64,000 nt of DNA from Myxococcales bacterium. GTDB lineage: Bacteria; Myxococcota; Polyangia; Nannocystales; Nannocystaceae. Location of the stretch: contig JAEUJW010000067.1 of NCBI GenBank assembly GCA_016793465.1, positions 1-64,000 of the forward strand. Reading direction: 5' to 3'. The translations under genes were made by a program, and so were the position numbers. Below the pieces are notes generated by a model. The model searched no databases. It was not told the DNA's origin and saw only the letters and a program-made list of their open reading frames with translations. Shown piece after piece: positions 3,558 through 51,742 of this stretch (its first letter is position 1; the number at the start of each line of letters is the position of its first letter).

Positions 3558-5239
3558 CAACCGCGGCGGCGGCGGCGGAGCCAGGTGTCGACGCTCATGG
3601 CCGCGAGCAGCACCAGGGACAGCGAGCCGGCGAGCAGCAGGTGAGCGGCGGCGCGGTCCTTGAACTCGTCCCACAGGCCGGGGCTCGCGCTGGCGACGAC
3701 CGGGATGGCGATGACGATCGGCGCGGGGGCCTCGGCGGCCGGCAGCGGCACCGGGGCCGCGGCGACCGTCGGCGCGGGCTCGGGCTCGGCGACCGGCGGG
3801 GCGGCGGGCGTGGGGTTGCCGAGCTCGCCGCGGATCATGCGGGCCATGGCGTCGTGCAGCGACTCGACGGTGAACTGGTCGACCTTGGGCTTGGCGTGCG
3901 AGCCGCCGACGCCGGAGTGGTCGGTGAGGAAGATGTACTGGCCGCCGGTGGCGCGGGCGGCCAGGCGCAGCTCGGCCTCGGCCTGCGAGAGCACGCCGCT
4001 GCCGGCGATCGGGTAGATCGCGGTGCCGGCCGCGCGGTGGTTGACGACCGACGCGGCGAACTCGCGGGCCTCGTCGCCGGTGTGGGTCGGGGCGTCGGCG
4101 ACGAGGAAGATCATGCGCGCGGTGTCCTCGCCGCTGCGCCAGGCCAGCTGCTCGCTGGCGGCGAGGGCGGCGTGCATGGCCTCGGGCGTGTCGCCGCCGC
4201 CGGTGGCCTGCTGCTGGCCGAGGCGCTCGACGAACTCGCCGATGCCCTGGAAGTCGAAGCGGCGGGTCACGTAGTCGTCGCCGCGGTCGCGGTAGACGAC
4301 GAGGGCCCAGCGCTGGGCCACACCGGGGAACTCGCGGTCGATGCGCTCGGCGATGTCGCGGATCTCGACCTTCAGGTACTCGAGCTCGTCGCCCATGCTG
4401 CCGGTGGTGTCGATCACCAGGGCGATGTCGAGGTTGCCCGGGCGCTCGGCGTGGCGCCGCTCCGGGGCGGACTTCGACCACAGCGCGGCGTCGATGCCGA
4501 GGGCCTTGCGGTCGGCGTCGAGGCGCTTCAGGGCGGTGCGCCAGCCCTTCGCGTCGGCGTTGTCGTCGACGCAGCCGACCGTCAGCGTGCCGGGCCGGAG
4601 CGCGCCGTCGAAGCGTCCGCCCTCGCGACCGAACGTCGAGGCGCCGCCGCCGTCGCCGCGCCCGCCGAAGCCCGCGCCGGCGCCCCGGCCGTAGCCCGAG
4701 CCCGAGCCCTTGCCCGCGGCGCCGACGGAGCCGAGGCCGATGGTGCCCTCGCCGGTGCCGCCGCCGCCGCGGCCGGTGCCGACCAGGCCGAGGCCGCCGA
4801 CGCCGTAGGCCTCGCCGATCTCGGTGCCGGTCAGGCCGCCCCACACGTCGGCGTCGTCCGAGCCGACGGCGAAGGCCGCCCCGTGGGGCGAGGCGAGGAA
4901 CGAGCCCTTGTCGGCCGCCATGAGGCCGAGGATGCCGGCCGAGCGGGCGGCGTCCTCGGCGACGGCGTCGCGCGGGCCGACCGGCGTGGGCGCGCCCATG
5001 CGGCCCTCTTCGCCGCGGTGCACCTGCGCACGGTCGCCGGCGGGCGCCTGCGAGTCGTCCGGCTCCGCCTCGTCGGCCGCGGCGATCTCGCGGGCGACGG
5101 GCAGCTCGGAGGTGCAGGCGTTGCCGGCGAGCAGCACGGCGAGCGCGGTGAGGCCGCCGAGCGCGGCGGTGGTGGTGACGGGCCACCTGTTCCAGAGGCC
5201 ATGTCGCGGGCGGGCGGCGCTGCCGGGTTGCGTGTTCAT
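3557..5239 (-). CDS. VWA-domain exported protein with Gly-rich module and C-terminal anchor
   Basis: A 560-residue protein with an N-terminal hydrophobic segment (about 24-40) ending AGNAC, a weak lipobox. Residues 76-195 carry a GEEGRMG motif followed by a long Gly-rich tract (VWGGLTGTEIGEAYGVGG, then repeated GxG). The VWA domain starts near 271 with MIDAS DTTGSMG (277-283). A Pro/Ala-rich stretch leads to a C-terminal hydrophobic helix (about 533-553) and an RRRRRG tail, so the protein may be held at both ends or sorted by the C-terminus. The Gly-rich module resembles one I recall from myxobacterial AgmX/PglI-type proteins; that comparison is from memory. First gene of a coupled pair with the FG-GAP lipoprotein. 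Confidence 0.8.
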   Translation of the reverse strand: MNTQPGSAARPRHGLWNRWPVTTTAALGGLTALAVLLAGNACTSELPVAREIAAADEAEPDDSQAPAGDRAQVHRGEEGRMGAPTPVGPRDAVAEDAARSAGILGLMAADKGSFLASPHGAAFAVGSDDADVWGGLTGTEIGEAYGVGGLGLVGTGRGGGGTGEGTIGLGSVGAAGKGSGSGYGRGAGAGFGGRGDGGGASTFGREGGRFDGALRPGTLTVGCVDDNADAKGWRTALKRLDADRKALGIDAALWSKSAPERRHAERPGNLDIALVIDTTGSMGDELEYLKVEIRDIAERIDREFPGVAQRWALVVYRDRGDDYVTRRFDFQGIGEFVERLGQQQATGGGDTPEAMHAALAASEQLAWRSGEDTARMIFLVADAPTHTGDEAREFAASVVNHRAAGTAIYPIAGSGVLSQAEAELRLAARATGGQYIFLTDHSGVGGSHAKPKVDQFTVESLHDAMARMIRGELGNPTPAAPPVAEPEPAPTVAAAPVPLPAAEAPAPIVIAIPVVASASPGLWDEFKDRAAAHLLLAGSLSLVLLAAMSVDTWLRRRRRG

Positions 5240-5276
5240 GCGGCGTCCAGACAGCGGCCGCCCGGCGAAGTTCCCG

Positions 5277-5316
5277 GGAAAAATTTATCGGGCCCGCGGG
5301 GCGGGGCCCCGCGGGC
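5277..5316 (-). terminator. Rho-independent terminator after the DUF4215 lipoprotein gene
   Basis: A perfect 10-base stem, GCCCGCGGGG (5292-5301) with CCCCGCGGGC (5307-5316) and a 5-base loop, lies 16 bases beyond the stop codon. On the minus strand it is followed by CCCGATAAATTTTTCC, giving the T-rich tract expected of an intrinsic terminator. Confidence 0.8.
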
Positions 5317-5331
5317 GCGGGCGCGCGGCGG

Positions 5332-7659
5332 CTACTTCCAGCAGTAGTTGGTCGCCGTGCAGTTGTGGTCCATGACGTAGGCGGAGAACGAGCAGCTGCC
5401 GCCGCCGCAGTTGTAGTTGACCGACTTCTTGAAGTCGTCGTCCTGCGGGTTCTGGTTGCAGTACGAGGTGTCGCCCCAGCCGTCGAGGTAGGCGGTGCCG
5501 GTGATGTTGACGTTGTTGATCGAGCACTGGTACTGCGCCGCGGTGCCGCCGAACAGCAGGGCGCAGGCCTCCTTGCAGGTGTAGCAGGGCGGGTTGGTGC
5601 CCCACGGCGGGCCCTGGTTGACCTGGTAGCTGCCGACCACGCTGATGTTCTTGGTGCAGGCGTTGGAGCAGGCGTCGTTGTTGACCTGGTTGCCGTCGTC
5701 GCAGGCCTCGACGTTGGCGCGCACGAAGCCGTCGCCGCACACCGCGTTCTTGCACATGCCGACGCAGGCGTCGGTGTTGACCATGTTGGCGTCGTCGCAC
5801 TGCTCGACGTTCTGCTGGACGATGCCGTCGCCGCAGGCGGCGACCTTGCAGGCGGCGGTGCAGGCGTCGGTGTTGACGAGGTTGCCGTCGTCGCAGGCCT
5901 CGCCGTTGCCGGCCTGGAGGAAGCCGTCGCCGCAGGCGGCGGACTTGCACAGGTTGGTGCAGCTGTCGGTGTTGACCAGGTTGCCGTCGTCGCACTGCTC
6001 GACGTTCTGCTGGACGAACTGGTCGCCGCACTTGGCGGCCTTGCAGGTGTTGAGGCAGGCGTCGGTGTTCGACAGGTTGCCGTCGTCGCACTGCTCGCCG
6101 GCGCCGGGCTGGATGAACTGGTCGCCGCACTTCGGCAGCTTGCAGCTGAGCGTGCAGGCGCCGGTGTTGCTGTTGTTGGCGCCGGCGTCGCACTCCTCGC
6201 CCGGCTGCTTGAAGCCGTCGCCGCAGGTCGCGAGCTTGCAGACGTTGGTGCAGGCGTCGTCGTTGGACTGGTTGCCGTCGTCGCAGGCCTCGCCCGGGCC
6301 CTTGAAGCCGTCGCCGCACACGTTGAGCGAGCAGTCGGACTTGCAGGCCTTGGTGTCGCCGTTGTTGGCGCCGTCGTCGCACTGCTCGACGTTGGCGTGG
6401 ATCAGGCCGTCGCCGCAGAGCGCGGCCTTGCAGGCCGAGGTGCAGTCGCCGGCGTCGCTGTTGGCGCCGCCGAGGTCGCACTGCTCGCCCTTGCTGGGCT
6501 GGAGGTAGCCGTCGCCGCACACCGGCAGCTGGCAGGCGTCGGTGCAGGCGTCGTCGTTGTCGCCGTCCTTGCCGTCGTCGCAGCCCTCGGCGGGGTCGAC
6601 GATCTGGTTGCCGCACTCCTCGAGCTTGCAGGTGCCCGAGCAGCCGTCGCCGCCGGCGAGGCCGCCGTCGTCGCACTGCTCGTCGGGGCCCTTGTCGCCG
6701 TCGCCGCACACGTTGACCTCGCAGGCCGCGTTGCAGGCCTGACCGGGGCCGTTGTCGACGCCGTCGTCGCACTGCTCGGTGCCGGCGCCGGTGTTGTAGA
6801 CGAAGCCGTCGCCGCACACGTTGTCGGCGCAGGTCAGGGTGCAGGCGGCGTTGTCGGAGTTGGCGACGCCGTCGTCGCACTGCTCGCCGGCCTGGATGTG
6901 GTCGTCGCCGCAGGCGGCCGCCGTGCAGTTGGTGGTGCAGGTGTCGGTGTCGACCTTGTTGCCGTCGTCGCACTCCTCGGTCGGGGCGACGAACCCGTCG
7001 CCGCAGGAGGCGAGGGCGCACAGGTTGGTGCAGCCGTCGTTGGTGTCGTCGTTGCCGTCGTCGCAGCCCTCGCCCGGGCCGACGAACCCGTCGCCGCAGA
7101 TCTGGTCGCTGCAGTCCGACTTGCAGCCGTTCATGTCGCCGTTCATCGCCCCGTTGTCGCACTCCTCGCTGGGGCCGACGTCGCCGTCGCCGCAGGCGTT
7201 GAAGCTGCAGCTGGTCGTACAGGCCATGCCGGGGCCGTTGTTCATGCCGTCGTCGCAGTCCTCGCCGGGGTCGATGACGCCGTCGCCGCAGAACGAGCCG
7301 GGGCCGGTCGAGGTCGAGTCGTCGCCGGTGGTCGAGTCGTCGCCGGTGGTGGTCGAGGTCGAGTCGTCGCCGGTGACGTCGGTGGTGGGCTCGTCGGTCG
7401 TCGGCGAGCTCGTCATCGGGGTGCCGCTGGTGAGCGGAGTGCCGCTGGTGACCGGGGTGCCGCTGGTGACCGGGGTGTCGCCGGTGGTGCTGGTCGGTTC
7501 GTCGCCGGTGACCGGCGGCGCGGTGCTCGTCGACGCGATCGCCGTGCTGCCGCCGCTGTCCGTGGCGGTGCCGGTGGAGCCGACCCCGCTGTCGCCGCAG
7601 GCCGCCGTCCACGCCAGACCCCACAACAGACCCCAAGCTCTCGCAGATGTGCGCCTCAT
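5332..7659 (-). CDS. DUF4215 Cys-rich repeat lipoprotein with 17 repeats
   Basis: This is a 775-residue secreted protein. The ATG at 7659 is preferred over the upstream GTG because AGGGAGG lies 8-9 bases before it. A lipobox-like WTAAC is followed by a T/S/D/P-rich linker with SGTPVT repeats. Seventeen tandem DUF4215 units follow, each about 30-36 residues with the pattern CGDGxxxxxExCDDGNxxNxDxCxxxC. The last 100 residues form a different Cys-containing domain (CYTCKEACALLFGG to the end). DUF4215 units are disulfide-stabilised and frequent in surface proteins of Nannocystaceae. The repeats are diverged rather than identical at DNA level, so this is an old expansion. Ligand unknown. Confidence 0.9.
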   Translation of the reverse strand: MRRTSARAWGLLWGLAWTAACGDSGVGSTGTATDSGGSTAIASTSTAPPVTGDEPTSTTGDTPVTSGTPVTSGTPLTSGTPMTSSPTTDEPTTDVTGDDSTSTTTGDDSTTGDDSTSTGPGSFCGDGVIDPGEDCDDGMNNGPGMACTTSCSFNACGDGDVGPSEECDNGAMNGDMNGCKSDCSDQICGDGFVGPGEGCDDGNDDTNDGCTNLCALASCGDGFVAPTEECDDGNKVDTDTCTTNCTAAACGDDHIQAGEQCDDGVANSDNAACTLTCADNVCGDGFVYNTGAGTEQCDDGVDNGPGQACNAACEVNVCGDGDKGPDEQCDDGGLAGGDGCSGTCKLEECGNQIVDPAEGCDDGKDGDNDDACTDACQLPVCGDGYLQPSKGEQCDLGGANSDAGDCTSACKAALCGDGLIHANVEQCDDGANNGDTKACKSDCSLNVCGDGFKGPGEACDDGNQSNDDACTNVCKLATCGDGFKQPGEECDAGANNSNTGACTLSCKLPKCGDQFIQPGAGEQCDDGNLSNTDACLNTCKAAKCGDQFVQQNVEQCDDGNLVNTDSCTNLCKSAACGDGFLQAGNGEACDDGNLVNTDACTAACKVAACGDGIVQQNVEQCDDANMVNTDACVGMCKNAVCGDGFVRANVEACDDGNQVNNDACSNACTKNISVVGSYQVNQGPPWGTNPPCYTCKEACALLFGGTAAQYQCSINNVNITGTAYLDGWGDTSYCNQNPQDDDFKKSVNYNCGGGSCSFSAYVMDHNCTATNYCWK

Positions 7660-12480: not shown

Positions 12481-14526
12481 ATGCCGCACGACTTCGCGAC
12501 CGAGGAGGACCTGCTCGACCGACTCACGGCGCAGTCCCACGACGTCGTGTACCTGGTCGGCTCGGCGCTCACGGCCCCGGCGGCGACGGGCGAGCCGGGG
12601 GTGCCGCGGGTCGACGGAGTGATCGCGGAGATCCGGTCGGTGTACACGAAGCCGGACGCGCTGGCGCGCTTCGACAAGGCGCTCGCCGACGAGCCGAGCA
12701 ACCGCTACCAGGCGGCGTTCCGCTTCCTGCAGCGCACGCGCGGGCAGGACCTGGCCAACGCGATCATCCGCCGCTGCGTGCTGCGGGCGCGGGTGACCTC
12801 GGCGAGGTACCCGCAGGTGCACGCGGACGTCGCCGAGGTCGGCGCGGGCGAGCTGTGCCGCTCGCTCGAGCAGGACCTCGAGGGCTGGCACCTGCCGCCG
12901 GCGGTGCGGGCGCTCGGGCAGATCCTCGCGCAGCGGCCGGCCGAGACCCGGCCGGTGGTGCTGACGTCGAACTTCGACCCGCTGGTGACGGTCAGCGTGC
13001 ACCGGGCCGGCGGGCGCGCGTTCACCACGGCGCTGCACAGCGACGGCGGGTTCGCGGCGATCGACGGGCACGGCACGCTGGTGGTCCACTTCCACGGCGA
13101 CTGGTTCCGCAGCGACACGCTGCACACGCCGGCCCAGCTCGGCCAGGACCGGCCGCGGCTGGCGGCCTCGCTGGCCCAGCTGCTGAGCGCGCGCACCCTG
13201 GTGGTGCTCGGCTACGGCGGCTGGGACGACATCTTCACGCGCAGCCTGGTGTCGGTGATCCGCGGTGAGCTGGCGCCGATCGACGTGCTGTGGACGTTCC
13301 GCGGCACGGACGAGGCGGCGCTGGCGGACGACTATAAGGGTCTGCTGAGCAACCTGGGCCCGGGCATCGAGCGGGCGCGGGTGCTGCTTTATAAGGGGAT
13401 CGACGCGCACGCGTTCTTGCCGAAGCTGGCCGAGTCGCTGGGCGCGGCGGCGCCGGTCGTGACGACGGCTCCGGTGACGCCGCAGCCGCCGGTGACGCCG
13501 AATACGCGGCCGGTCACCGGCGAGGTGCTCGGGACGTCGAACGGCACGATCGTCGGGGCGATCCACGTCGACGACCCGGGCGACAGCACGGTGCACGGGC
13601 GCGTCGGCGACACCGGCAGCTGGCGCATCGGCGACAGCGCGATCCTCGGGCCGGTCGACCCGCGGACCGGACAGGGCACAGGGCCGCGGCCGGGCGACGG
13701 CGGCAAGTCACCTGGCCCCGGGGACAGCAACGGGCGCGGGGCGCAACCTGGCCCGGAGGACAGCAGCTCGGCGGGCGGGAGGAACCCGTTCCAGAAGGCG
13801 GGTGCGCTGGCGCTGGACGCGGCGTCGTACGTGCGCCGCGGGTCGGACGACGGGCTGAAGGCGGCGCTCGCCGAGTACGCGCTGATCGCGGTGCGCGGGG
13901 AGTTCTCGAGCGGGAAGAGCTCGCTGCTGCTGCGGGCGGAGCGCTACTGGGGTCGGGCCGAGGCGGCGGTGTGCCGGCTCGACCTGATGGACATGCGCAT
14001 CGACGACGTGAACCTGTTTTACGACGAGTTCTTCCGCGCGGTCGGGGAGTGCTACGGGCAGGAGTTCACGGGCTGGCGCGAGGTGACGGAGGCGGCGCAG
14101 GCGCGGCCGCTGCTGCTGACGCTCGACGAGTTCTCGGGGCTGACGCCGGACGTGGCCCAGCGCTTCGTGCCGGCGCTGCACCGCCTCGGCACCCGGCTGC
14201 GCGAGCAGATCCGCATCGTGGTGACCACGCGCGACCCGTTCGAGGTCGTGCTCGGCAGCTTCCACCTCAACAACCCGAACCTCGGCGACTGGCACACCGT
14301 GGAGATCGCGCCGCTCAGCGAGGCGGAGCTCGCGGGGCTGCTCGGGCACCTCGGGCCGCGCGCGGGGGCGGCGACCCAGGGCCAGCTCGACGCGGTGCGG
14401 CGGCACTCGGGCATGATGCCGAAGCCGGTGCAGTGCCTCGGCTTCAACCTGTGGAAGGACGAGGCGGCGGGCAAGCCTGACGCCGAGCTGGTGGCGCGGG
14501 TGGGTCGCAAGGAGAGCTACCGGTGA
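12481..14526 (+). CDS. SIR2-like domain fused to AAA_35-type P-loop ATPase
   Basis: A 681-residue fusion. Residues about 15-330 form a SIR2_2-type domain: YLVGSAL near the N-terminus, TSNFDPL with Asn 164, VVHFHGDW with His 203 and 205, and VVLGYGGWDD. The Asn and His that NADase-type SIR2 domains use appear present. A Pro/Thr- and Gly-rich linker (about 345-440) leads to an ATPase domain with Walker A GEFSSGKS (473-480) and Walker B LLLTLDE (544-550). This ATPase region aligns by eye with the N-terminus of the next protein. The next gene overlaps by 4 bases (GTGA). SIR2-ATPase fusions are known in anti-phage systems; the role here is inferred. Confidence 0.8.
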   Translation: MPHDFATEEDLLDRLTAQSHDVVYLVGSALTAPAATGEPGVPRVDGVIAEIRSVYTKPDALARFDKALADEPSNRYQAAFRFLQRTRGQDLANAIIRRCVLRARVTSARYPQVHADVAEVGAGELCRSLEQDLEGWHLPPAVRALGQILAQRPAETRPVVLTSNFDPLVTVSVHRAGGRAFTTALHSDGGFAAIDGHGTLVVHFHGDWFRSDTLHTPAQLGQDRPRLAASLAQLLSARTLVVLGYGGWDDIFTRSLVSVIRGELAPIDVLWTFRGTDEAALADDYKGLLSNLGPGIERARVLLYKGIDAHAFLPKLAESLGAAAPVVTTAPVTPQPPVTPNTRPVTGEVLGTSNGTIVGAIHVDDPGDSTVHGRVGDTGSWRIGDSAILGPVDPRTGQGTGPRPGDGGKSPGPGDSNGRGAQPGPEDSSSAGGRNPFQKAGALALDAASYVRRGSDDGLKAALAEYALIAVRGEFSSGKSSLLLRAERYWGRAEAAVCRLDLMDMRIDDVNLFYDEFFRAVGECYGQEFTGWREVTEAAQARPLLLTLDEFSGLTPDVAQRFVPALHRLGTRLREQIRIVVTTRDPFEVVLGSFHLNNPNLGDWHTVEIAPLSEAELAGLLGHLGPRAGAATQGQLDAVRRHSGMMPKPVQCLGFNLWKDEAAGKPDAELVARVGRKESYR

Positions 14527-17500
14527 GCCGGGACAACCCGTACCGGGCGGCGGGGGCGTTCCGCGGCAAGGCGTACATCCGCCGCGAGGCCGACGCGCAG
14601 CTCATCGAGCAGATCGAGGACAACCAGTACTACCCGTACTTCGCGGCGCCGCGGCAGAGCGGCAAATCGAGCCTGCTGATGCGCACGATGTCGGCGCTGG
14701 CGCCGGCGAAGTACCGCTGCGCGCTGGTCGACCTCTCGCCGTTCGTGGTCGCCTCGTACGACGACTTCTGGCGCCAGTTCCTGCACGAGGTGGCCCGCAG
14801 CGCCAACTTCGACCCCACGCCGATCGGCCAGGAGGACCCGCGCGACGTGTTCCTGCTGTGGCTGCGCAGCTGCAAGCAGCGGCTCATCGTGTTCATGGAC
14901 GAGATCGACGTGCTGCTGGGCGTCGAGTGCCGCGAGCAGATCTTCAGCAAGTTCAGGACATTTTTTAATATGCGGGCCCGGTCGGACACGGCCGAGCTCG
15001 AGCGCCTGCAGTTCGTGCTCGCGGGCGCGGCCCACTCGTCGCGCTTTATCAAGGACCCGCGGTGGTCGCCGTTCAACGTGGCCATCGAGATCGAGCTCGA
15101 GGACCTGACGGCGGCGCAGGTCAGCCAGCTCGCGGCCTACCTGGCGACCGCGGGGTCGTTCGCGGGGCCGGACCTGACGCAGCGGGTCTACGAGCTGACC
15201 GGCGGCGGGGTGTTCCTGTGCCAGCTGGTGTTCGAACAGCTGTGGAACATGGCGGCCCGCGGCCACCAGCGCCTCGGCGCGGCCGACGTCGACGCGGTGG
15301 TCGACACGATCGTGGCCGAGAGCCCGCGCAACATCCACTTCTACAACATCTTCCGCCTGGTCACGGCGGACCCGCGGCTGGCGATGCTGTTTCGCCGGCT
15401 GGCCGACGGCCAGGAGCTCGGCCACGAGGAGCAGAAGGAGCTGCGGCTGACGGGGATCTGCCGCGGCGCGGCGCCGTTTCGCAACGAGGTGTACGCGCGG
15501 GTGTTCGGGCCGGGCGGGCCGCTCGACCTCAAGGTGGGCAGCAAGCAGATCGAGCTCGGCAAGCAGCTCGACGCGGCGCTGGCCCGGCGCGAGCGCCTGC
15601 GCATGGACACCGACCACAGCGCGGCGGAGGCGGCGGAGGCGGAGGTCCGGCGGCTGCGCCGCGAGTTCCGCGAGGGCACGAGCCTGCAGGTCGGCGACGT
15701 GCTCGGACGCGGGCGCTGGCGGGTCGACGAGAAGATCGGTCAGGGCGGGTTCGCCACGGTGTGGCGGGCGTTCGACGGCAAGACCCAGGGGGACGTGGCG
15801 ATCAAGGTGCTGCACGGGCAGTTCGCCGAGGACCGCACCCGCCGCGACAGGTTCTTCCGCGGGGCCTGGAAGATGTCGGAGCTGAAGCACCCGGGCATCG
15901 TCGAGGTGGTCGAGCCGTACAGCGAGGAGAACGGCTACTACTACTTCGTGATGGAGTTCCTGCGCGACGGGACGCTCCACGACGCGGTGCTGGACAAGAA
16001 GGTGGGCACGGCGCAGGTGCTGCGGATCGTGGCGCAGGTCGGACGGGCGCTGCACTTCGCGCACTCGAAGGGGCTGGTCCACCGCGACGTCAAGCCGACC
16101 AACGTGCTGGTGTCCGGCGAGGCCGGCAAGCTGACGGACTTCGACCTGGTCCGCGAGACCGACATCACCGGGCAGACCAAGACGGGGGCGATGGGGACGT
16201 TCCTGTACGCGGCGCCGGAGGTGATGTCGCGGCCGCAGGAGGCCGACCCGCGCGCCGACGTGTACGGGCTCGGCATGACGACGGTGTTCGCCCTGCACGG
16301 CGAGGACCTGGCGATGGACGTCATCCGCGACACCGACCGCTTCATCGAGCGCCTGAAGTGCCCGCCGGCGGTCCACGAGGTGCTGAAGACGGCGGTGGCG
16401 TGGGACCGCGAGCAGCGGTTCGCCTCGTGCGAGGCGTTCGTGAATGCGCTCGAGGCGGCGGGGCGCGAACCGAAGCGGGCCGTCGCGGCCGGTCCGGCGG
16501 ACAGCCAGCGCACGGCGGTCCCCGAGTGGGGGGCGCTGGCGGGCGACTCGGTGCTGCTCGGGGCGGCGAGGTCGCGGCAGGCTCCGGCGGCGCCGGCGAG
16601 GTCGGCGGCGCCGGCTGCGTTCGCTCTGGCGCCGAAGTCGGTGACGGCGCCGTCGTCGTCGTCGTCACAGCTGTCGGCGTCGTCGCAGCTGTCGGCGTCG
16701 TCGCGCGACCTGCGGGCGGCGATGGCCGAGGTGCCGGCGCCGCACCCCGACGTCGAGCGCCTGTCCGAGGAGGAGGCGCCGCGGCTCGAGATGCAGAGCT
16801 TCGACGACGACGAGCAGCGCTCGTCGGCGGGGATCCAGGAGCTCGCGGCCCCGGTCGCTGACGCCGAGGATCCCTCGCTGCCGCTCGTCGTCGCGGCGGG
16901 CGGGGCGGCGAGCGCTCCGGAGCTCGCGCCGGCCGCTCCGCCGCCGCAGCCGGCGACGCGGCGCGGGCCCGACGCGGCGGCGGCGCGGGGTCCGGCGGAG
17001 CGCACGGGGTCGATGCGCACGCTGGCGGTCGCGGCCGCGTCGGCGCCGGGCGTGACCGCGGATGTCCTTGCGGACAGGTCGCGGCCGGGCGCGGAGCAGC
17101 CGCGGGCGGCGAGCGAGCCGCAGGCGGTCAAGCAGGCGCCGGCGCAGCCGGCCGAGCGGCGCAGCCGGTGGTTCGCGTACGCGGGGCTGGCGGCGAGCGT
17201 GGCGCTCTTGTTCGTGGCGGTGCAGTCCTCGTCGGACTGGGCCTCCGGCGGAGTCGAGGCGGTGCGCGAGACCGGCCCGGACAGGGGCGCACTGCCCAGC
17301 AAGTCGCCGATCGACGGCTCCGAGCAGGCGGACGTACCGCAGCCGGTGGTCGACGCGAAGAAGGATCTGGAGACGACGCTGACCACGCCGACCACGCCGA
17401 CCACGCCGACCGGGGTGACGCCGCCGACGGCCACGCCGGCGGACGGCGGGCCGACGGCCGCGGCGGACGACGCGGCGGGGGAGACCGAGCCGGCCGAGAC

Positions 17501-18029
17501 GTCGGCGGGGCCCGACGGGGCCGACGACGGCGAGGCGACGGCGCCGCGGCCGAGCGCGACGACCGACGGGGTGACGGCGACGCGGGTGACCGGCGGGGAG
17601 ACGGCGGGCGAGACCGCGGGCCTCGAGACCAAGCAGGTGCCGAGGCCGCCGGAGGAGTCGTTCGACGATCTGCTGCGCGACGGCTGCAAGGAGGCCAACG
17701 GCGGCGACGCGGAGAAGGGTTATAAGAAGCTGCGGGCGGCGCTCGACAGGAACCCGCGCAACATCAAGGTGATCGAGTGTCTGGCCAGGGCGAACATGGG
17801 CCTCAACAACTACAAGGCCGCCGAGATGTACTACCTGCAGATCACACGCATGGAGCCGCGGACGCCGAAGGCGTGGCTCGGCGCGGCGGAGGCCAACGAG
17901 AAGCTCGGCCGGCTGAGCAACGCGGCGGGCTACTACGATCAGCTGCGCGAGTACTTCCCGAACAACGAGTCGGCGGCGGCGTTCTTCCGGGCCAACCCCA
18001 GGCTCGACCCGCGGGCCAGGCAGCGGTGA
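14523..18029 (+). CDS. AAA_35 ATPase / Ser-Thr kinase / TM / TPR fusion protein
   Basis: A 1168-residue protein starting at a GTG that overlaps the upstream stop. The N-terminal ATPase (about 5-340) has Walker A APRQSGKSS at 43-51 and Walker B LIVFMDEIDVLL. A protein kinase domain (about 395-640) has GQGGFATVW, VAIK, HRDVKPTNV near 520 and an APEVM motif. The usual DFG is DFD (about 539-541). A low-complexity Ser/Ala/Pro region follows, then one TM helix (about 883-903), a Thr/Pro-rich stretch and TPR-type repeats (about 1045-1160). So ATPase and kinase should be cytoplasmic and TPRs across the inner membrane. Likely transduces a signal with its SIR2-containing partner. Confidence 0.8.
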   Translation: MSRDNPYRAAGAFRGKAYIRREADAQLIEQIEDNQYYPYFAAPRQSGKSSLLMRTMSALAPAKYRCALVDLSPFVVASYDDFWRQFLHEVARSANFDPTPIGQEDPRDVFLLWLRSCKQRLIVFMDEIDVLLGVECREQIFSKFRTFFNMRARSDTAELERLQFVLAGAAHSSRFIKDPRWSPFNVAIEIELEDLTAAQVSQLAAYLATAGSFAGPDLTQRVYELTGGGVFLCQLVFEQLWNMAARGHQRLGAADVDAVVDTIVAESPRNIHFYNIFRLVTADPRLAMLFRRLADGQELGHEEQKELRLTGICRGAAPFRNEVYARVFGPGGPLDLKVGSKQIELGKQLDAALARRERLRMDTDHSAAEAAEAEVRRLRREFREGTSLQVGDVLGRGRWRVDEKIGQGGFATVWRAFDGKTQGDVAIKVLHGQFAEDRTRRDRFFRGAWKMSELKHPGIVEVVEPYSEENGYYYFVMEFLRDGTLHDAVLDKKVGTAQVLRIVAQVGRALHFAHSKGLVHRDVKPTNVLVSGEAGKLTDFDLVRETDITGQTKTGAMGTFLYAAPEVMSRPQEADPRADVYGLGMTTVFALHGEDLAMDVIRDTDRFIERLKCPPAVHEVLKTAVAWDREQRFASCEAFVNALEAAGREPKRAVAAGPADSQRTAVPEWGALAGDSVLLGAARSRQAPAAPARSAAPAAFALAPKSVTAPSSSSSQLSASSQLSASSRDLRAAMAEVPAPHPDVERLSEEEAPRLEMQSFDDDEQRSSAGIQELAAPVADAEDPSLPLVVAAGGAASAPELAPAAPPPQPATRRGPDAAAARGPAERTGSMRTLAVAAASAPGVTADVLADRSRPGAEQPRAASEPQAVKQAPAQPAERRSRWFAYAGLAASVALLFVAVQSSSDWASGGVEAVRETGPDRGALPSKSPIDGSEQADVPQPVVDAKKDLETTLTTPTTPTTPTGVTPPTATPADGGPTAAADDAAGETEPAETSAGPDGADDGEATAPRPSATTDGVTATRVTGGETAGETAGLETKQVPRPPEESFDDLLRDGCKEANGGDAEKGYKKLRAALDRNPRNIKVIECLARANMGLNNYKAAEMYYLQITRMEPRTPKAWLGAAEANEKLGRLSNAAGYYDQLREYFPNNESAAAFFRANPRLDPRARQR

Positions 18030-25674: not shown

Positions 25675-27252
25675 GTGAACGTGTCGACCGACAGCAAGGC
25701 CGCGACGGCGACGGCGACGCCGCCCGCGGCCGAACCGTCGCGCGAGGCGGCGATCGCGTCGCGCGAGCCGGGCCCGACGTCTCGGCCCCCCGGGCCCGAG
25801 GGCGAGCTGGCGGAGACGCGTCCGGGCGAGTCGGGGCTGACCTTGCCCGGAGGACAGGTCGACATGACGACCGGCCCGGGGCCGATGGCGACGACCAACA
25901 TCGAGGCGCTGCCGACCGGGCGCACGCACCCGCCGGGCATGGTGACGACGCTGCGCCCGGCGGGCATGATGACGACCGCCCTCGGCACGCTCGACGGCGC
26001 GGGCGGGGGCTCGCGCGCCAGCTCGCTGACGCCGGGCACGCTGATCGACGGCAAGTACCGCCTCGAGGCGATGCTCGGCAAGGGCGGCATGGGCATCGTC
26101 TGGCGGGCCGAGCACGCGCACCTGCACGGCAGCGTGGCGATCAAGTTCCTGCTCGACCGCTTCCGGGCCAAGCCGCAGGTGATCGAGAGGTTCTGGCAGG
26201 AGGCGACGGTGATGGGGGAGCTCGGCCACCCCAACATCGTGCGCGTGCACGACATCTCGCCGGCCTCGGCCGAGATGCCGTACATCACCATGGAGCTGCT
26301 GCAGCAGGGCAGCCTGCGCGAGTATCTGAAGAAGTCGGGCGGGACGCTGCCGCCCGACGAGGCGGTCGAGCTGATGGACGGGGTGCTGTCGGCGCTGATC
26401 GCCGCGCACAAGCGGGGCATCGTGCACCGCGACATCAAGCCCGACAACCTCATGCTGGCGACCATGCGCTCGTTCGAGACCGACCTCAACGAGGTGCAGC
26501 TCAAGATCCTCGACTTCGGGGCGTCGCTCCTGCTCGACAACCAGAGCGACATCAATACGGCGGAGGGGCTGCTCGGCACGCCGTACTACATGTCGCCGGA
26601 GCAGGCCTCGGGCGCGCAGCTCGACCAGCGGTCGGACCTGTACTCGACGGCGGTGGTGCTCTACGAGCTGGTCAGCGGCAAGCTGCCGCACACCGCCGAG
26701 GACGTGCACTCGCTGGTGTACGCGATCGCCACCGAGGAGGCCCGACCGATCGAGCAGCACGCGCCCAACCTGACCCGCGGGTTTCGCGAGTTCTTCCAGC
26801 GGGCGCTGGCGATGGACCCGAAGGCCCGCTACCAGACGGCCGAGGACATGCGCGAGGGCATGCGCAAGCTGTCGAAGAAGCTGTCGGGTAAGGTCCGCAA
26901 CACCGCGCTGTACATGGCCAGCGGCGACACCGGGCCGCTGGCGGCGCTGACGCCCGAGCGGCCCGACTCGCGGCCGATGCGCTCGTTCCGCGCGTCGCTC
27001 GACGAGCCGCGCCCGTCGGAGACGCTGCCGATGCCGCCGCAGCCGAGCGAGCCGTCGCTGCAGCAGCTGCGGCAGCGACGCTTCCCGGTCGTCGCGGCGA
27101 TCGCCGCGGTGGTGGCCCTGGCGCCGGCGCTGGCCCTGCAGTCGTCGCGCTTCGGCGGGCTCGCCAGGGCGCCGGTGATCGAGACGCTGTTCGCGTGGAT
27201 CGGCTGCGCCGGCGTGGCGGTGTTCCTCGCCTGGCGCGTGACCCACCGCTGA
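25675..27252 (+). CDS. Membrane-anchored Ser/Thr protein kinase
   Basis: A 525-residue kinase. A disordered N-terminus (about 1-118) precedes a canonical kinase domain (about 125-390): GKGGMGIVWRAEH, VAIKFLL, VHRDIKPDNLM, ILDFGAS and GTPYYMSPEQ. All catalytic residues (Lys, HRD Asp, DFG Asp) are present. A linker is followed by two C-terminal hydrophobic helices (about 472-490 and 500-520), so the kinase domain is cytoplasmic and membrane-tethered. The GTG start is 9 bases after a TATCCT box (25661-25666), suggesting a leaderless message. Substrates unknown. Ends 3 bases from the convergent WrbA gene. Confidence 0.9.
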   Translation: MNVSTDSKAATATATPPAAEPSREAAIASREPGPTSRPPGPEGELAETRPGESGLTLPGGQVDMTTGPGPMATTNIEALPTGRTHPPGMVTTLRPAGMMTTALGTLDGAGGGSRASSLTPGTLIDGKYRLEAMLGKGGMGIVWRAEHAHLHGSVAIKFLLDRFRAKPQVIERFWQEATVMGELGHPNIVRVHDISPASAEMPYITMELLQQGSLREYLKKSGGTLPPDEAVELMDGVLSALIAAHKRGIVHRDIKPDNLMLATMRSFETDLNEVQLKILDFGASLLLDNQSDINTAEGLLGTPYYMSPEQASGAQLDQRSDLYSTAVVLYELVSGKLPHTAEDVHSLVYAIATEEARPIEQHAPNLTRGFREFFQRALAMDPKARYQTAEDMREGMRKLSKKLSGKVRNTALYMASGDTGPLAALTPERPDSRPMRSFRASLDEPRPSETLPMPPQPSEPSLQQLRQRRFPVVAAIAAVVALAPALALQSSRFGGLARAPVIETLFAWIGCAGVAVFLAWRVTHR

Positions 27253-30751: not shown

Positions 30752-32344
30752 ATGCGGTCCCACAACCTCGTCAAAATTCTCGGGCTCAGTCTTGCCCTCC
30801 CCACGGGTAGCCTGGCGTGCACGTCGGAGCCCGGCCATGCCCACCCGGCCGGTCACCACAGCGCGCCGGCGGTGCCGGAGGTGCGCCACCGGATCGCGGT
30901 GGCGGCCGACGACCAGGCGCTCGGCGGCGCCGAGCCGCTCGTCACCATCGTCGTGTTCTCCGACTACGCGTGTCCGCCGTGCGGGCGCGCGTGGCAGGTG
31001 TTCGACCACCTGCTCGAGGACTACGGCCAGGACATCCGCGTGGTGTTCCGGGCGATCACCATCCCGGGCTTCGCCGACGGCGAGCGGGCCGTCGAGGCCG
31101 CCCTCGCCGCCGGGGCGCAGGGCCAGTTCTGGCCGATGCACCGCCGGCTGTACAAGGGGTCGTCTTCACGGCCCTCCGGGCCTGCGGAGCCGCCGCGCTT
31201 CGACCGGGCGGCATTAAAAAGTTACGCCGAGGAGCTCGGGCTCGACGTGACGCGCTTCCTCGACGACCTCGACCTCGGGGCGTTCAGCGCGGCGCGGGTG
31301 CAGCACCGGCGCGAGGCGGTCTCGCTGGGCATCTACTTCGGGCCGGTCTCGCTGGTCAACGGGCGGCCGGTGATCGGCTTCCGCGACGAGGCGAGCTGGC
31401 ACGACCTGATCGACCAGGAGATCCTCGCGGCGCGGGCGAAGATCCGCGAGGGCACCCCGCGCGCCGAGGTTTATGCGGCCTTCCAGGCCGAGGCCGTGGC
31501 CGCGCCGATCGACCTCGAGGGCGAGGCGCTCGCCGCCCGCAAGCAGCTCGAGCAGCGCTTCGCCGTCGACGTGAACAAGCTCCCGGCCGACTTTAAAAAG
31601 GCCGAGCCGGGGCAGCGCTATCAGGTGCCCGCGGGCGGCGCTCCGGCCTCGGGCCCCGCCGACGCGCCGGTCGAGCTCGTCGTCTTCATGGACTTCGAGT
31701 GCCCGTTCTGCCGCCGCCTGGCCCAGGACGGCTTCGCGGCGCTGCGGGAGAAGCACGCCGAGGACGTGCGCCTCGTGTTCCGCCAGCTGCCGCTGCCGGC
31801 CCACCAGGGCGCCGACGGAGCGGCCCGCGCGGCGGTCGCGGCCGGCAACCAGGGCCAGTTCTGGCCGTTCGCCGAGAGGCTGCTGGCGAGCGACACCCGG
31901 CGGCTCGACCGCGGCGCCTTCATCGCCGCGGCGCAGGCGGTCGGGCTCGACGAGGCCAGGTTCCTCGCCGACCTCGACGCGCCGGCCACCGCCCGGGCTG
32001 TCCGCGAGGACATGTTGCTCGCGCGCCGGCTCGGCGCGAGCGCCACGCCGGCGCTGTTCTTCAACGGCCGCTTCGTCAACGGCGTCGCCGACGTCGAGAT
32101 GTTGCTGGCCGAGGTCGCCGCCGAGTTGAAGGCGGCCGACGAACTCGTCGAGGCAGGCACGCCGCGCGCCGGCGTCGCCGCCGCCCTGCTGGCCCGGGGG
32201 TTGCCTCCGGACCAGTTCCCGAACCCCGACTCGGACAAGGCCGCGGGGCCCTCCAAGCCAGACACTGCCCGGCCCGCCGGGCCCGATCCGACCATCACCC
32301 CGAACCCTGGGCCCTCCGGGCCAGCCACCACCCCTGCGCCTTAA
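30752..32344 (+). CDS. Exported protein with two DsbA-like thioredoxin domains
   Basis: A 530-residue exported protein, with a hydrophobic leader ending TGSLAC (Cys 23, an imperfect lipobox) and a His-rich start to the mature region. Domain 1 has FSDYACPPC with the redox pair at 74 and 77. Domain 2 has DFECPFC with the pair at 317 and 320. Each is followed by the VVFR and GQFWPMHRRLY/GQFWPFAERLL helices of the Thioredoxin_4/DsbA family. Between domains is GTPRAEVYAAF, repeated in the sister proteins. The tail (about 500-530) is Pro/Gly/Thr-rich. First of four adjacent redox genes, in the periplasm or outer membrane. Roles in oxidation, reduction or isomerisation cannot be told apart from sequence. 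Confidence 0.85.
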   Translation: MRSHNLVKILGLSLALPTGSLACTSEPGHAHPAGHHSAPAVPEVRHRIAVAADDQALGGAEPLVTIVVFSDYACPPCGRAWQVFDHLLEDYGQDIRVVFRAITIPGFADGERAVEAALAAGAQGQFWPMHRRLYKGSSSRPSGPAEPPRFDRAALKSYAEELGLDVTRFLDDLDLGAFSAARVQHRREAVSLGIYFGPVSLVNGRPVIGFRDEASWHDLIDQEILAARAKIREGTPRAEVYAAFQAEAVAAPIDLEGEALAARKQLEQRFAVDVNKLPADFKKAEPGQRYQVPAGGAPASGPADAPVELVVFMDFECPFCRRLAQDGFAALREKHAEDVRLVFRQLPLPAHQGADGAARAAVAAGNQGQFWPFAERLLASDTRRLDRGAFIAAAQAVGLDEARFLADLDAPATARAVREDMLLARRLGASATPALFFNGRFVNGVADVEMLLAEVAAELKAADELVEAGTPRAGVAAALLARGLPPDQFPNPDSDKAAGPSKPDTARPAGPDPTITPNPGPSGPATTPAP

Positions 32345-32395
32345 AGGGCCAATACCATCCGCAACACGCCGCCTCCGGCCGACAAGACAACACCC

Positions 32396-34585
32396 ATGAA
32401 ACGCATCAGTCTTCCCTTCCTCGTGGTCTCGGCGCTCGCCGTGGCCACCTCTTCCATGACCGGCTGCACGGGCAACCGCGGCGGCACGCCCGCCAACAAG
32501 GACGCCGCCGCCAACACGCAGCCCGGCGCGCCCGGGGCCAAGGTCATCACGATGGATGACGTCGACGAAAAGCTCAACGCCAAGGTCCAGGGCGAGCGCT
32601 TCCGCGTGACCTACAACGACAAGGACCCGTTCTTCGGCGCCGACGCGCCGCTCGTCACGATCGTCGAGTTCTCGGACTTCCAGTGCCCGTTCTGCTCGAA
32701 GTTCGCCGACATGCTGCACGAGCTGATGAAGGACCCGGCCTACGCCAAGGACGTGCGCGTGGTCTTCAAGCAGTTCCCGCTGCCGATGCACAAGGACGCG
32801 GGCACCGGCTCGGAGGCGGCGCTGGCCGCCGGCGACCAGGGCAAGTACTGGGAGATGCACGACCTCCTGTTCAAGAACCAGAAGGCGATGACCCGCCCGG
32901 ACGTCGAGAAGTACGCCGAGCAGCTCGGGCTCGACATGGCGAAGTTCAAGGAGGCGCTCGACAAGGGCACGTTCAAGGCCAAGGTCGAGGCCGACATGAA
33001 CATGGGCAAGCAGTTCGGGGTGCGCGGCACGCCGAGCTTCTTCATCAACGGCAAGTGGCAGCGCGGCGCGCCGCGGGCGATCGACGGCCTGAAGAAGCTG
33101 ATCGACGAGGAGAAGGCGGCCGCCGAGCAGCTGATCAAGGACGGCAGCGCGCGTGAAGAGGTGTACGCGCGCATCATGAAGGCCGCCAAGGACAAGCGGG
33201 TCGAGCCGCCGCAGGAGAACAAGCCGCGCCCCGGTCAGCCCGACCCGGCCGTCAACTACGCGGTGCCGCTCGACGGCCGCCCGGCGTTCGGCCCCGAGGA
33301 CGCGCTGGTGACCATCGTCGAGTACAGCGACTTCCAGTGCCCGTTCTGCAGCCGCGTCAACCCGACGATGAAGCAGATCAAGGAGACCTACCCGAAGGAC
33401 GTGCGCATCGTGTTCCGCCAGCTCCCGCTCGGCTTCCACGACCGCGCCCGCCCGGCCGCCAAGGCGGCGCTCGCGGCGGCCCAGCAGGGCAAGTTCTGGG
33501 AGATGCACGACGCGCTGTTCGCCAACCAGAAGGCGCTCGACGACAAGTCGCTCGAGACCTACGCGTCGCAGATCCAGGGCCTCAACCTCGACCAGTGGAA
33601 GAAGGACCTGGCCGACGCCAAGCTCGAGACGCTGGTCAAGGAGGACGAGACCGTCGCCGCCAAGTTCGGCGCGGGCGGCACCCCGGCGTTCTTCATCAAC
33701 GGCCGCTTCCTCTCCGGCGCCCAGCCGTTCGAGGAGTTCGACAAGCTGATCAAAGAGGAGAAGGGCAAGGCCGAGAAGTTCCTGGCCGCCAACAAGGGCG
33801 TCAGCAAGAAGGACGTCTACGAGGCCATGCGCAAGGGCTGGGAGACCGAGCTGAAGGTCCCGCCGCCGCCGCCGGCGGCCGACTTCAAGCGCCGCGACGT
33901 CAGCACCAAGGGCCTCGCGGGCAAGGGCAACCTGAAGAACCCGAAGGTCACGATCGTGGAGTGCTCGGACTTCGACTGCCCGTTCTGCAAGCGCGGCGCC
34001 GACACGGTCGCGCAGATCACCAAGGAGTTCGGCGACAAGGTCGGGATCTACTTCCGCAACTACCCGCTGCCGATGCACAAGATGGCCGAGCCGGCCCACC
34101 GCGCCGGCATCGCCGCGCAGAACCAGGGCAAGTTCTGGGAGATGCACGACCTGCTGTTCGCCGACAAGGCCAAGCGCGCCGACAAGGACTTCGAGGGCTA
34201 CGCGCAGCAGCTCGGGCTCGACATGGTCAAGTTCCAGCGCGACTACGCCGACGCCGCGACCGCGCAGCGGGTCAAGGACGACATGGCCGAGTGCACCAAG
34301 ATGGAGGTCCGCGGCGCGCCCGGCTTCCTGATCAACGGGCGCCTGATGAGCGGGGCCCAGCCGTTCGAGCGCTTCAAGGCGGTCATCGAGGAGGAGATGA
34401 ACGGCGGCTTCGAGGCCACGCAGAAGAAGGAGAAGGAGGCGGCGGCCAAGGGGCAGAAGCCCGGCGCTCCGGCGCAGCCCGGCGCCCCGGCGCAGCCCGG
34501 CGCGGCGAAGAAGCCGGCCGGCGCCGACGCGCTGCCCCCCGGCCCGACCCCGGGCAAGCCGGCCGAGCCGGCGCCGAGCAAGTGA
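32396..34585 (+). CDS. Lipoprotein with three DsbA-like thioredoxin domains
   Basis: A 729-residue protein with leader and lipobox-like SMTGC (about 20-24). Three full thioredoxin-like domains follow in tandem, each with the CPFC active site: pairs at 97/100, 315/318 and 528/531. Each copy repeats DFQCPFC (DFDCPFC in copy 3), FRQLPL or FKQFPL, GKYWEMHDLLF and GTPSFFINGKW-type motifs with the cis-Pro. Ordinary DsbA-family proteins have one such domain of about 200 residues; three in one chain is unusual. It begins 51 bases after the previous gene. The Lys/Pro-rich tail may be disordered. Confidence 0.88.
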   Translation: MKRISLPFLVVSALAVATSSMTGCTGNRGGTPANKDAAANTQPGAPGAKVITMDDVDEKLNAKVQGERFRVTYNDKDPFFGADAPLVTIVEFSDFQCPFCSKFADMLHELMKDPAYAKDVRVVFKQFPLPMHKDAGTGSEAALAAGDQGKYWEMHDLLFKNQKAMTRPDVEKYAEQLGLDMAKFKEALDKGTFKAKVEADMNMGKQFGVRGTPSFFINGKWQRGAPRAIDGLKKLIDEEKAAAEQLIKDGSAREEVYARIMKAAKDKRVEPPQENKPRPGQPDPAVNYAVPLDGRPAFGPEDALVTIVEYSDFQCPFCSRVNPTMKQIKETYPKDVRIVFRQLPLGFHDRARPAAKAALAAAQQGKFWEMHDALFANQKALDDKSLETYASQIQGLNLDQWKKDLADAKLETLVKEDETVAAKFGAGGTPAFFINGRFLSGAQPFEEFDKLIKEEKGKAEKFLAANKGVSKKDVYEAMRKGWETELKVPPPPPAADFKRRDVSTKGLAGKGNLKNPKVTIVECSDFDCPFCKRGADTVAQITKEFGDKVGIYFRNYPLPMHKMAEPAHRAGIAAQNQGKFWEMHDLLFADKAKRADKDFEGYAQQLGLDMVKFQRDYADAATAQRVKDDMAECTKMEVRGAPGFLINGRLMSGAQPFERFKAVIEEEMNGGFEATQKKEKEAAAKGQKPGAPAQPGAPAQPGAAKKPAGADALPPGPTPGKPAEPAPSK

Positions 34586-34695
34586 GTCGGTGAGGACCGC
34601 GGGCCGGGCGCAGCGCACGGCCCGCGGCACCAACGCTGCGGCCGCGGCCGCGGCGTTGCGCTGCGAGGGTTTTGCAGGTACGTGGAGACGTCTCG

Positions 34696-36123
34696 ATGAG
34701 CGACCAAGATAAGGCCCCACCGTCCGCCCCGCCGTCGTCGACCCCCAAGCGGTCCGTGACGGGGCTCCTCCTCGCCGTGCTCGGCTTCGCGGCCACGCTC
34801 GGGCTCGGGTTTTTGGCCGGGCAGTGGATCCGCGATCGGTTCTTCGGGGAGCCGGCGCAGATCGCCGAGGGCGACCGCTACAAGGTGCCGATCCGCGGCG
34901 ACGAGCCGGTCAAGGGCCCGGCCGACGCGCTGGTGACGATCATCGAGTTTAGCGACTTCCAGTGCCCGTATTGTTCGAAGGTCAACGAGCCGCTGCGCAG
35001 CGCGATGAGCGGGCTCGGCGACGACGTGCGCGTGATGTTCAAGCACTTCCCCCTCGGCGGCCACCCGCAGGCCAAGCCGGCCGCGCAGGCGGCGTGGGCG
35101 GCCGAGAAGCAGGGCAAGTTCTGGGAGCTGCACGACCTGATGTTCGCCAACCAGCGCGCGCTCGCTGACAGCGACCTCGAGGGCTACGCCCGGCAGCTCG
35201 GCCTCGACATCGAGAGGTTCAACGCCGACCGCAAGAGCGAGGAGGCCAGCGCGGCGGTCGACGGCGACCAGCGCTCGGGCATCAAGGCCGGCGTCAGCGG
35301 CACGCCGTCGTTCCTGGTCAACGGTCACCCGTACAGCGGGGCCCTGCCGGCCAACCAGTGGCGCGAGATCCTCGAGCACGAGCGCAAGGCCGCGCAGGCG
35401 CTGGTCGACGCCGGCACCCCGCGCGCCGAGGTGTTCGCCGCGCTCATGAAGGACGCCAAGGAGTCGCGCGTGGGCGCCGGCAAGGCCGCCGGTCGCCGCC
35501 CCGGCGAGCCCGACCCGGCCAAGACCTACAAGGTGCCGGTCGACGCGCGCCCGGTCTACGGCCCGAGCGACGCGCTCGTCACGCTGGTGATCCTCAGCGA
35601 CTTCCAGTGCCCGTTCTGCAAGAAGGTCAACGCGGCGCTCGACGAGGTCAAGGAGAAGTACCCGAACGACGTGCGCCTGGTGTTCCTCCAGCGCCCGCTG
35701 CCGAGCCACCGCGGCGCGCGCGACGGCTCGCGCGCCGCGCTCGCGGCCCACCGCCAGGGCAAGTTCTGGGAGATGCACGACAAGCTGTTCGGCAACCCGG
35801 CCGACATGTCGAAGGAGACGTTCATGCGCTACGCGCAGGAGCTCGGCCTCGACACCGCGACCTTCGAGCTCGACATGGCCGCCGCCGACCTCGAGCAGAT
35901 GATCAAGGACGACGAGGCGCTGGCCAACAAGCTGGGCTCGCGCGGCACCCCGGCGTTCTTCATCAACGGGCGCTTCATCAGCGGCAACATGCCGTTCGAG
36001 TCGTTCGCCGCGCTGATCGACGAGGAGAAGGCCAAGGCCCAGAAGCTCGTCGACGCCGGGACCCCGAGGTCCGAGGTCTACGCCAAGATCATGGCGAGCG
36101 CCGAGGAGAAGCCGGGGGCCTGA
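34696..36123 (+). CDS. Membrane-anchored protein with two DsbA-like thioredoxin domains
   Basis: A 475-residue protein. ATG at 34696 has GGAG upstream and is chosen over a TTG further 5'. One N-terminal TM helix (about 21-40, LLLAVLGFAATLGLGFLAG) anchors it in the inner membrane with the domains in the periplasm. The active sites are CPYC (90-93) and CPFC (305-308). The helices GKFWELHDLMF and GKFWEMHDKLF are conserved. It lies 110 bases after the three-domain protein and 1 base before the TlpA-like gene, so transcription and translation with the latter are linked. Confidence 0.88.
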   Translation: MSDQDKAPPSAPPSSTPKRSVTGLLLAVLGFAATLGLGFLAGQWIRDRFFGEPAQIAEGDRYKVPIRGDEPVKGPADALVTIIEFSDFQCPYCSKVNEPLRSAMSGLGDDVRVMFKHFPLGGHPQAKPAAQAAWAAEKQGKFWELHDLMFANQRALADSDLEGYARQLGLDIERFNADRKSEEASAAVDGDQRSGIKAGVSGTPSFLVNGHPYSGALPANQWREILEHERKAAQALVDAGTPRAEVFAALMKDAKESRVGAGKAAGRRPGEPDPAKTYKVPVDARPVYGPSDALVTLVILSDFQCPFCKKVNAALDEVKEKYPNDVRLVFLQRPLPSHRGARDGSRAALAAHRQGKFWEMHDKLFGNPADMSKETFMRYAQELGLDTATFELDMAAADLEQMIKDDEALANKLGSRGTPAFFINGRFISGNMPFESFAALIDEEKAKAQKLVDAGTPRSEVYAKIMASAEEKPGA

Positions 36124-36124
36124 T

Positions 36125-51581: not shown

Positions 51582-51742
51582 GGGGCATCTGGGGTACCAC
51601 GACCGGACCCGGGCGCCGGGCGCCGCCAGGCTTGCCCTTTCTCACGGAAACGCGGCGGAGCGGGCGCGTGGCGGCGGTTTGCGGGCTGCGCGGGTGGGGC
51701 GCGGGCTTTCAGGCGCGCGGGGGCCTGATAGGCTGCCGGCGG

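Follow-up and report, generated by a model that had tools for sequence, protein, structure and literature searches.

How might two related ATPases and a receptor-like Ser/Thr kinase be brought to bear on a SIR2 domain that could destroy NAD+? The question is raised by two overlapping genes on the plus strand of a 64,000-nucleotide (nt) stretch of DNA from a Myxococcales bacterium of the family Nannocystaceae (contig JAEUJW010000067.1, positions 1 to 64,000; hereafter, the window). Gene A (12481 to 14526; ATG start), of 681 amino acids (aa), codes for a SIR2 domain, a disordered linker, and an ATPase domain (ATPase-alpha), and gene B (14523 to 18029; GTG start; 1168 aa) codes for a second ATPase domain (ATPase-beta), a Ser/Thr protein kinase, a transmembrane (TM) helix, and tetratricopeptide repeats (TPRs). 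The answer that we favor, with modest confidence, is a two-protein switch of the STAND (signal transduction ATPases with numerous domains) type, in which a membrane sensor/kinase ATPase would license the clustering of a SIR2 ATPase and so lead to the destruction of NAD+.

Layout and conservation of the gene pair

Both open reading frames (ORFs) are borne out at these coordinates, as is the 4-nt overlap that an earlier note, made from the letters of the DNA, had described. The tetranucleotide GTGA at 14523 to 14526 (plus strand) contains both the stop of A and the GTG start of B, which points to translational coupling, and it is identical in all eight junctions printed, namely, those of the window, six Nannocystis loci (L001 to L006), and a metallophosphoesterase variant (L064; see below). 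Third-position GC is 0.97 in A and B alike, the window has a GC content of 68 to 76% in 4-kb stretches, and the closest named matches of both proteins are from Nannocystis. As 43 of the 120 listed homologs of A align across 100% of its length, A is not a chance ORF.

A single scan of genome contigs recovered 38 loci that encode a relative of A. The B ATPase lies directly downstream in six of these, which are exactly the loci that match the whole of A (L001 to L006, all Nannocystis); the outcome that would have told against a functional pair, homologs found singly and never adjacent, thus did not come true. In L006 (N. pusilla Na p29) A is split over several frames, and P0048 reads as one fused 902-aa protein. 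Within 29 genomes of the family, 10 have a match to A and 14 have a match to the B ATPase. Each of these six Nannocystis genomes has one full-length locus (in pieces in G006), and contigs of equal size are common to the A clusters and 10 of 31 B clusters, which suggests that the two co-occur in metagenomes.

The genome of N. poenicansa (G005) additionally carries a lone SIR2 paralog of A (L128:6152-7738; 528 aa; no ATPase seen), in which third-position GC is lower (0.72) and TPNFD replaces the TSNFD of A. A transposase-like ORF, judged by eye, lies upstream of it (4478 to 5584), and the paralog looks like a mobile relative of A.

The SIR2-ATPase protein A

The first 328 residues of A (12481 to 13464) form a SIR2 NADase-like domain. 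The SIR2_2 family (PF13289) is matched at residues 159 to 264 with 28.4 bits, just above the Pfam cut-off of 24.5, and the predicted model of this part matches the folds of SPARSA, ThsA, KomBC, DSR2, and Avs5. The SIR2-STAND-like nature read from the sequence earlier is thereby supported, and the best matches being SIR2 folds, no other fold scored better. Two motifs are intact, T-S-N-F-D (residues 162 to 166; 12964 to 12978), the counterpart of TTNxD, and H-F-H-G (residues 203 to 206; 13087 to 13098), which includes the HG motif; N164, D166, H205, and G206 are kept in 50 of 50 aligned homologs. The first loop is G-S-A-L-T (residues 27 to 31; 12559 to 12573), replacing the sirtuin GAGxS motif; in the 50-row alignment, position 27 is G throughout, position 28 is S in 42 rows (A in 8), position 29 is A in 41 (P in 6, G in 3), and position 31 is T in 46.

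Modules homologous to this domain (48 to 58% identical) are also fused to a kinase in one polypeptide, as SIR2-kinase-TPR (P0058) or kinase-SIR2 (P0074), or are joined to FHA and TIR (P0060) or to NB-ARC-TPR (P0076). At the level of domain architecture, these fusions support a functional link of the A-type SIR2 to kinases and TPRs of the B type, and the one with FHA hints that control may depend on phosphorylation. The altered loop and the fusions to FHA and TIR, which suggest signaling scaffolds, could also be taken to mean that the SIR2 of A makes a signal or modifies proteins (by ADP-ribosyl transfer or deacylation), so as to regulate the B kinase or a target, and does not deplete NAD+. However, among the 50 rows shown, the matches of this part are mostly defense SIR2s known as NAD+ consuming, plus human FAM118B, and we hold such a role to be very improbable.

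The SIR2 domain is followed by a linker (residues 329 to 430; 13465 to 13770) with a predicted local distance difference test (pLDDT) score below 50, which is gappy and variable in the alignment of A homologs, and by ATPase-alpha (residues 434 to 681; 13780 to 14523), which has a STAND/ORC-type fold and ends, together with the protein, at residue 681. Its Walker residues K479, S480, D549, and E550 are kept in 22 of 22 aligned proteins. The earlier note had called the ATPases of A and B paralogous and AAA_35 like; the homology stands, whereas A gave no Pfam match to AAA_35 (PF14516) at an E value of 0.01. Support for homology comes from BLASTP (29% over 91 columns; E = 4e-5), a hidden Markov model (HMM) of B-type ATPases that scores A at 32 bits over residues 432 to 541, and similar STAND/ORC-type fold matches of the two predicted models.

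The ATPase-kinase protein B

ATPase-beta (residues 1 to 345; 14523 to 15557) belongs to AAA_35 (67.2 bits versus a Pfam cut-off of 27), which we take to be the Npun2340/2341 family. Its Walker residues K48, S49, D126, and E127 are kept in 31 of 31 orthologs. The kinase that follows (residues 400 to 631; 15720 to 16415) is PknB like (Pkinase, 134 bits) and, as presumed beforehand, intact: K428, E453, D522, K524, N527, and D539 are each kept in all 31, and it carries DFD instead of DFG. With the residues checked intact, a pseudokinase reading was rejected. The kinase matches the PADLOC models PD-T4-6 and Stk2, as most PknB-like kinases would.

The single TM helix (residues ~882 to 902; 17166 to 17228) likewise holds, since all 31 aligned orthologs have a hydropathy peak of ≥1.5 C-terminal to the kinase. 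K and R residues are more numerous on its kinase side in 19 of the 31, equal in 10, and fewer in 2, a positive-inside count that weakly suggests that the TPRs lie outside the cytoplasm. For the TPR region itself (residues ~1045 to 1160; 17655 to 18002) the claim survives in part: in the window protein, TPR_16 reaches 29.9 bits at residues 1087 to 1144, under the cut-off of 32.7, although many orthologs have TPR families among their listed domains. This end evolves fast, the median identity to B of the window being 86% for the ATPase (the most conserved part), 70% for the kinase, 35% for the TPRs, and 21 to 23% for the linkers.

Relatives of B are present in Sorangium (P0153 to P0157). Four further proteins of ~1560 aa (P0163, P0165, P0166, and P0170), with 41 to 46% identity to the B ATPase, list AAA_35, a kinase domain, PF13086, and PF13087, the last two presumably helicase-type AAA domains; they may be single-chain cousins of the A/B system.

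Module exchange and related tandem operons

Because metallophosphoesterase and SIR2 pairs share one beta-ATPase clade, the module of gene 1 has evidently been exchanged at least once within the kinase-type clade. In genome G016 (L064), a kinase-type B follows, across a GTGA junction, a gene in which a metallophosphoesterase (Metallophos, 51 bits) replaces SIR2 and whose product is 35% identical to A across the ATPase. In G017 (L065:10844-11284), the kinase-type B is preceded by a gene of just 146 aa that begins as a phosphoesterase and ends as an ATPase, reflecting either decay or an assembly fault. In the beta-ATPase tree, a single clade (100/99) unites G016 and G017 with the seven SIR2 pairs and two lone kinase-betas; the tree has long branches and eight open forks, and this group alone is used. 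The tree label "MPE" also covers the G017 copy and the second system of G001, and "unk" (four rows, with L116 represented by its first pair) denotes no known domain before the gene 1 ATPase. A search with the alpha ATPase returned SIR2-family proteins only (46 of 47 with PF13289; the 47th, P0012, is a full-length ortholog without a Pfam call), and hence G016 and the broken G017 copy are the cases that speak for exchange within this alpha subfamily.

Tandem ATPase genes extend well beyond this clade. A second, paralogous operon type of Nannocystaceae combines a metallophosphoesterase-alpha with a WD40 beta (L066 to L072; WD40 by a Pfam scan of L066). Across 356 Myxococcota genomes, we found at least 36 AAA_35 matches in at least 18 genomes, with 22 of the matches in 11 adjacent pairs; these are lower bounds, as at most five candidates were scored per genome and the genomes are a sample. 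The gene 1 modules of the 11 pairs are metallophosphoesterase in six (including the second system of G001, whose phosphoesterase and ATPase parts lie in two frames), SIR2 of another type in two (L101 and L102), DNA-binding Trans_reg_C in two (L100 and L103), and TIR in one (L094). Matches to the beta ATPase were also present in 34 plasmid records, and in six of the eight examined an ATPase gene lies directly upstream (it is absent from L112 and L113). These six come from Nostoc (two records), Leptolyngbya, Chlorohelix, Abditibacteriota, and Sphingobium; their gene 1 modules are TIR (L114), CHAT plus TIR (second pair of L116), and HTH (L117), with no known module before the ATPase in L110, L111, L115, and the first pair of L116. 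Gene 1 of L115 matches AAA_22/AAA_16 and not AAA_35. The ends of 15 gene 2 proteins scanned outside the kinase clade are WD40 in eight (L066, L097, L100, L103, L108, L110, L111, and L117), PAS-GAF (L114), histidine kinase (L116), and TPR (L115, below the cut-off) in one each, and no known domain after the ATPase in four (L094, cut at the contig end, L099, L101, and L102); a Ser/Thr kinase was found in 0 of the 15.

Three kinase-type betas (kinase by Pfam) in G008, G344, and G373 have no recognizable alpha gene alongside (L095, L096, and L098; 1437 to 1646 aa, with L096 cut at the contig end). The L098 kinase has HRN in the place of the HRD of B.

The lone kinase-betas, together with an intact kinase that resembles PD-T4-6 and Stk2 in the nonspecific manner noted above, would agree with a kinase-centered abortive system like those two, in which the kinase is the effector and A provides only an ATPase partner. 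Against it, the alpha side is exchanged while the kinase remains on the beta side (L064), the SIR2 catalytic residues are fully conserved, and the other tandem operons scanned have no Ser/Thr kinase; we consider it quite improbable.

Judged by sequence, the A/B pair is built on a modular two-gene chassis in which an [N-terminal module]-ATPase precedes an ATPase-[sensor]. Tentatively, the chassis might be a general bacterial relay of two related STAND ATPases, with an exchangeable receptor in gene 2 (membrane kinase-TPR, WD40, PAS-GAF, TPR, or histidine kinase) and an exchangeable output in gene 1 (SIR2, TIR, metallophosphoesterase, or DNA binding), which in Nannocystis would link NAD+ destruction to a receptor with a Ser/Thr kinase. 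Such operons occur in Myxococcota, Cyanobacteriota, Chloroflexota, Abditibacteriota, and perhaps Pseudomonadota. The arrangement is reminiscent of the sensor/executor pairs of plant nucleotide-binding leucine-rich repeat receptors (NLRs).

Genomic setting

In the Nannocystis genomes, the A/B pair is a fixed chromosomal locus, as indicated by its shared flanks: one upstream gene is common to all six loci and more of the upstream block to four or five, and the downstream flanks are common only partly. A mobile defense island is therefore unsupported. The window's own flanks have no match in the 8 kb around the six loci except for kinase homology, and the synteny could not be followed into the window. 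The eight neighboring proteins scanned in the window include none that is defense like; they are ordinary (symporter, CBS, LpoB, and sigma factor). A phage origin was rejected, as the SIR2 part of A has no match at an E value of 1e-5 in 50,697 phage records; viral contigs hold three distant SIR2 relatives (27 to 28%).

This setting bears on an alternative with the same biochemistry, namely, that Nannocystis uses the pair as an NAD+ switch in housekeeping or development, with the TPR/kinase receptor responding to a self signal in starvation, envelope stress, or programmed lysis during multicellular development. The single fixed locus per genome, the ordinary neighbors, and the DNA-binding gene 1 modules of relatives favor it, and these outputs, like the histidine kinase and PAS-GAF sensors, resemble general signaling. 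In contrast, the enzymatic gene 1 modules (SIR2, TIR, and DS9-like phosphoesterase) are of the kinds that immune systems use and favor defense, and the fast evolution of the sensor end relative to the ATPase fits a contested interface but also loose constraint. On balance, we regard the non-defense switch as rather unlikely and an anti-phage function, as far as domain content can tell, as plausible.

Comparison with known systems

Avs5 (AVAST type 5), a SIR2-STAND protein, is the top Foldseek match of A (9jap; E = 7.7e-9, across both domains). Both start with SIR2 and continue into a STAND-type ATPase, and the available portion of PMC12931631 indicates that Avs5 shares the N and D of TTNxD with A. 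However, Avs5 is a single polypeptide that brings its own C-terminal part, whereas A ends after the ATPase without a C-terminal sensor; sensing would probably reside in B, with its second ATPase, kinase, and TM helix. Thoeris ThsA, the SPARSA SIR2, DSR2, SIR2-HerA, and KomBC likewise share with A the SIR2 fold and the TxNxD and HG motifs, but in A and B there is no match to SLOG, Argonaute, or HerA, and an ATPase pair and kinase are found instead. The pair differs from Thoeris (ThsA SIR2-SLOG plus ThsB TIR) in that A, B, and the scanned neighbors have no SLOG or TIR match, and from SIR2-HerA in that its partner is an AAA_35-kinase protein, with no HerA match in the same set.

A tandem STAND operon is already in print. 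As described in the available part of Kaur et al. 2021 (PMC8195603), the predicted nSTAND2 operon has adjacent genes with a STAND NTPase in each, one of them with variable effectors (most commonly GT4 or HEPN) and an eroded NTPase, and a hetero-oligomer was proposed. Our chassis shares the two adjacent STAND genes and the variable effectors on one of them, but its effector-side NTPase is not eroded (Walker residues of A kept in 22 of 22), B is AAA_35, and its modules are SIR2, metallophosphoesterase, TIR, and DNA binding. The same part of that source names the Npun2340/2341 (MNS-clade) STAND family as an NTPase in conflict systems, with no SIR2-kinase pair in its descriptions. Searches of the open-licence literature turned up neither tandem AAA_35 pairs nor this SIR2-kinase pair, and no mention of PF14516, of "AAA-like domain" plus WD40 operons, or of Nannocystis with SIR2. 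The earlier view that no described system has this combination therefore holds, within that literature, for the SIR2-kinase pair but not for the two-gene STAND arrangement, and A/B is best described as an apparent SIR2-STAND split into a sensor/executor pair.

The order kinase-TM-repeats of B is that of PknB-type receptor kinases with PASTA repeats, but B has TPRs in place of PASTA and an N-terminal ATPase; the PASTA kinase PknB/Stk1 model (NCBIfam NF033483) reaches 176 versus the required 450 bits, in the kinase part only. Other multicomponent systems with kinases as effectors, mostly with disrupted catalytic residues, appear in the available part of Kaur et al. 2020 (PMC7159879).

Proposed mechanism

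Under the favored sensor/executor switch, B would be a membrane-anchored sensor whose ATPase-beta and PknB-like kinase lie in the cytoplasm and whose TPRs, beyond the single TM helix, probably lie outside it, and A a soluble executor in which SIR2 is flexibly tethered to ATPase-alpha. Until triggered, the two ATPases would be kept inactive. Upon a trigger sensed by B, most likely infection and possibly another envelope or cell-state signal, ATP-bound ATPase-beta would nucleate hetero-oligomers with ATPase-alpha, with phosphorylation by the B kinase as a licensing step; the SIR2 domains thus gathered would hydrolyze NAD+, leading to cell arrest or death. The gene anatomy, intact catalytic residues, folds, overlapping junction, conserved adjacency, and exchange of N-terminal modules on one chassis support this scheme, from which we infer the alpha-beta contact, the oligomerization, the kinase substrate (including phosphorylation of A), the NAD+ loss, and the trigger. 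The exchange on the same chassis also strengthens, short of demonstrating, the idea already raised in the earlier note that the ATPase pair gates SIR2. Its further idea, that the TPRs sense an envelope or cell-state signal relayed by the kinase, would draw on a TM helix that is real and an orientation that is weakly supported.

Several points weigh against this scheme. The fixed chromosomal position, with an upstream gene common to six loci, speaks against a mobile defense locus, and none of the eight neighbors is defense like. The first SIR2 loop is G-S-A-x-T and not GAGxS. The alpha-beta tie is drawn purely from the genes, three kinase-betas have no recognizable alpha alongside, and exchange in the kinase clade has one intact case (L064). 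A Ser/Thr kinase on gene 2 occurs in a single clade (0 of 15 elsewhere), and its role may be an add-on. Finally, three tandem operons (L100, L103, and L117) have a DNA-binding module instead of an enzyme in gene 1, so the chassis is not for killing only.

The known form of SIR2-STAND immunity (Avs5) consists of a single protein; in the A/B pair, sensing and execution appear to be divided between two proteins that each keep an intact ATPase, with a receptor-like kinase placed along the route. Should the two ATPases coassemble, the pair would offer a simple genetic system for asking how a STAND protein is licensed by another one, as happens in plant NLR pairs, and whether NAD+-depleting suicide is set off by bacterial Ser/Thr kinases. 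Module exchange further predicts that a new output on the same ATPases should keep the trigger.

Other features of the window

TBLASTN found no second copy of the A or B ATPase in the window, and the idea of two such loci there was rejected; the other kinase matches, at 26050 to 26643 and 51920 to 52537, are plain kinase homology. The latter lies within a 1862-aa ORF (51436 to 57024) with a match to ImpA_N (type VI secretion) at residues 1428 to 1522. At 30752 to 36730, three adjoining proteins with repeated DsbA/thioredoxin domains are followed by an AhpC-TSA/redoxin protein.

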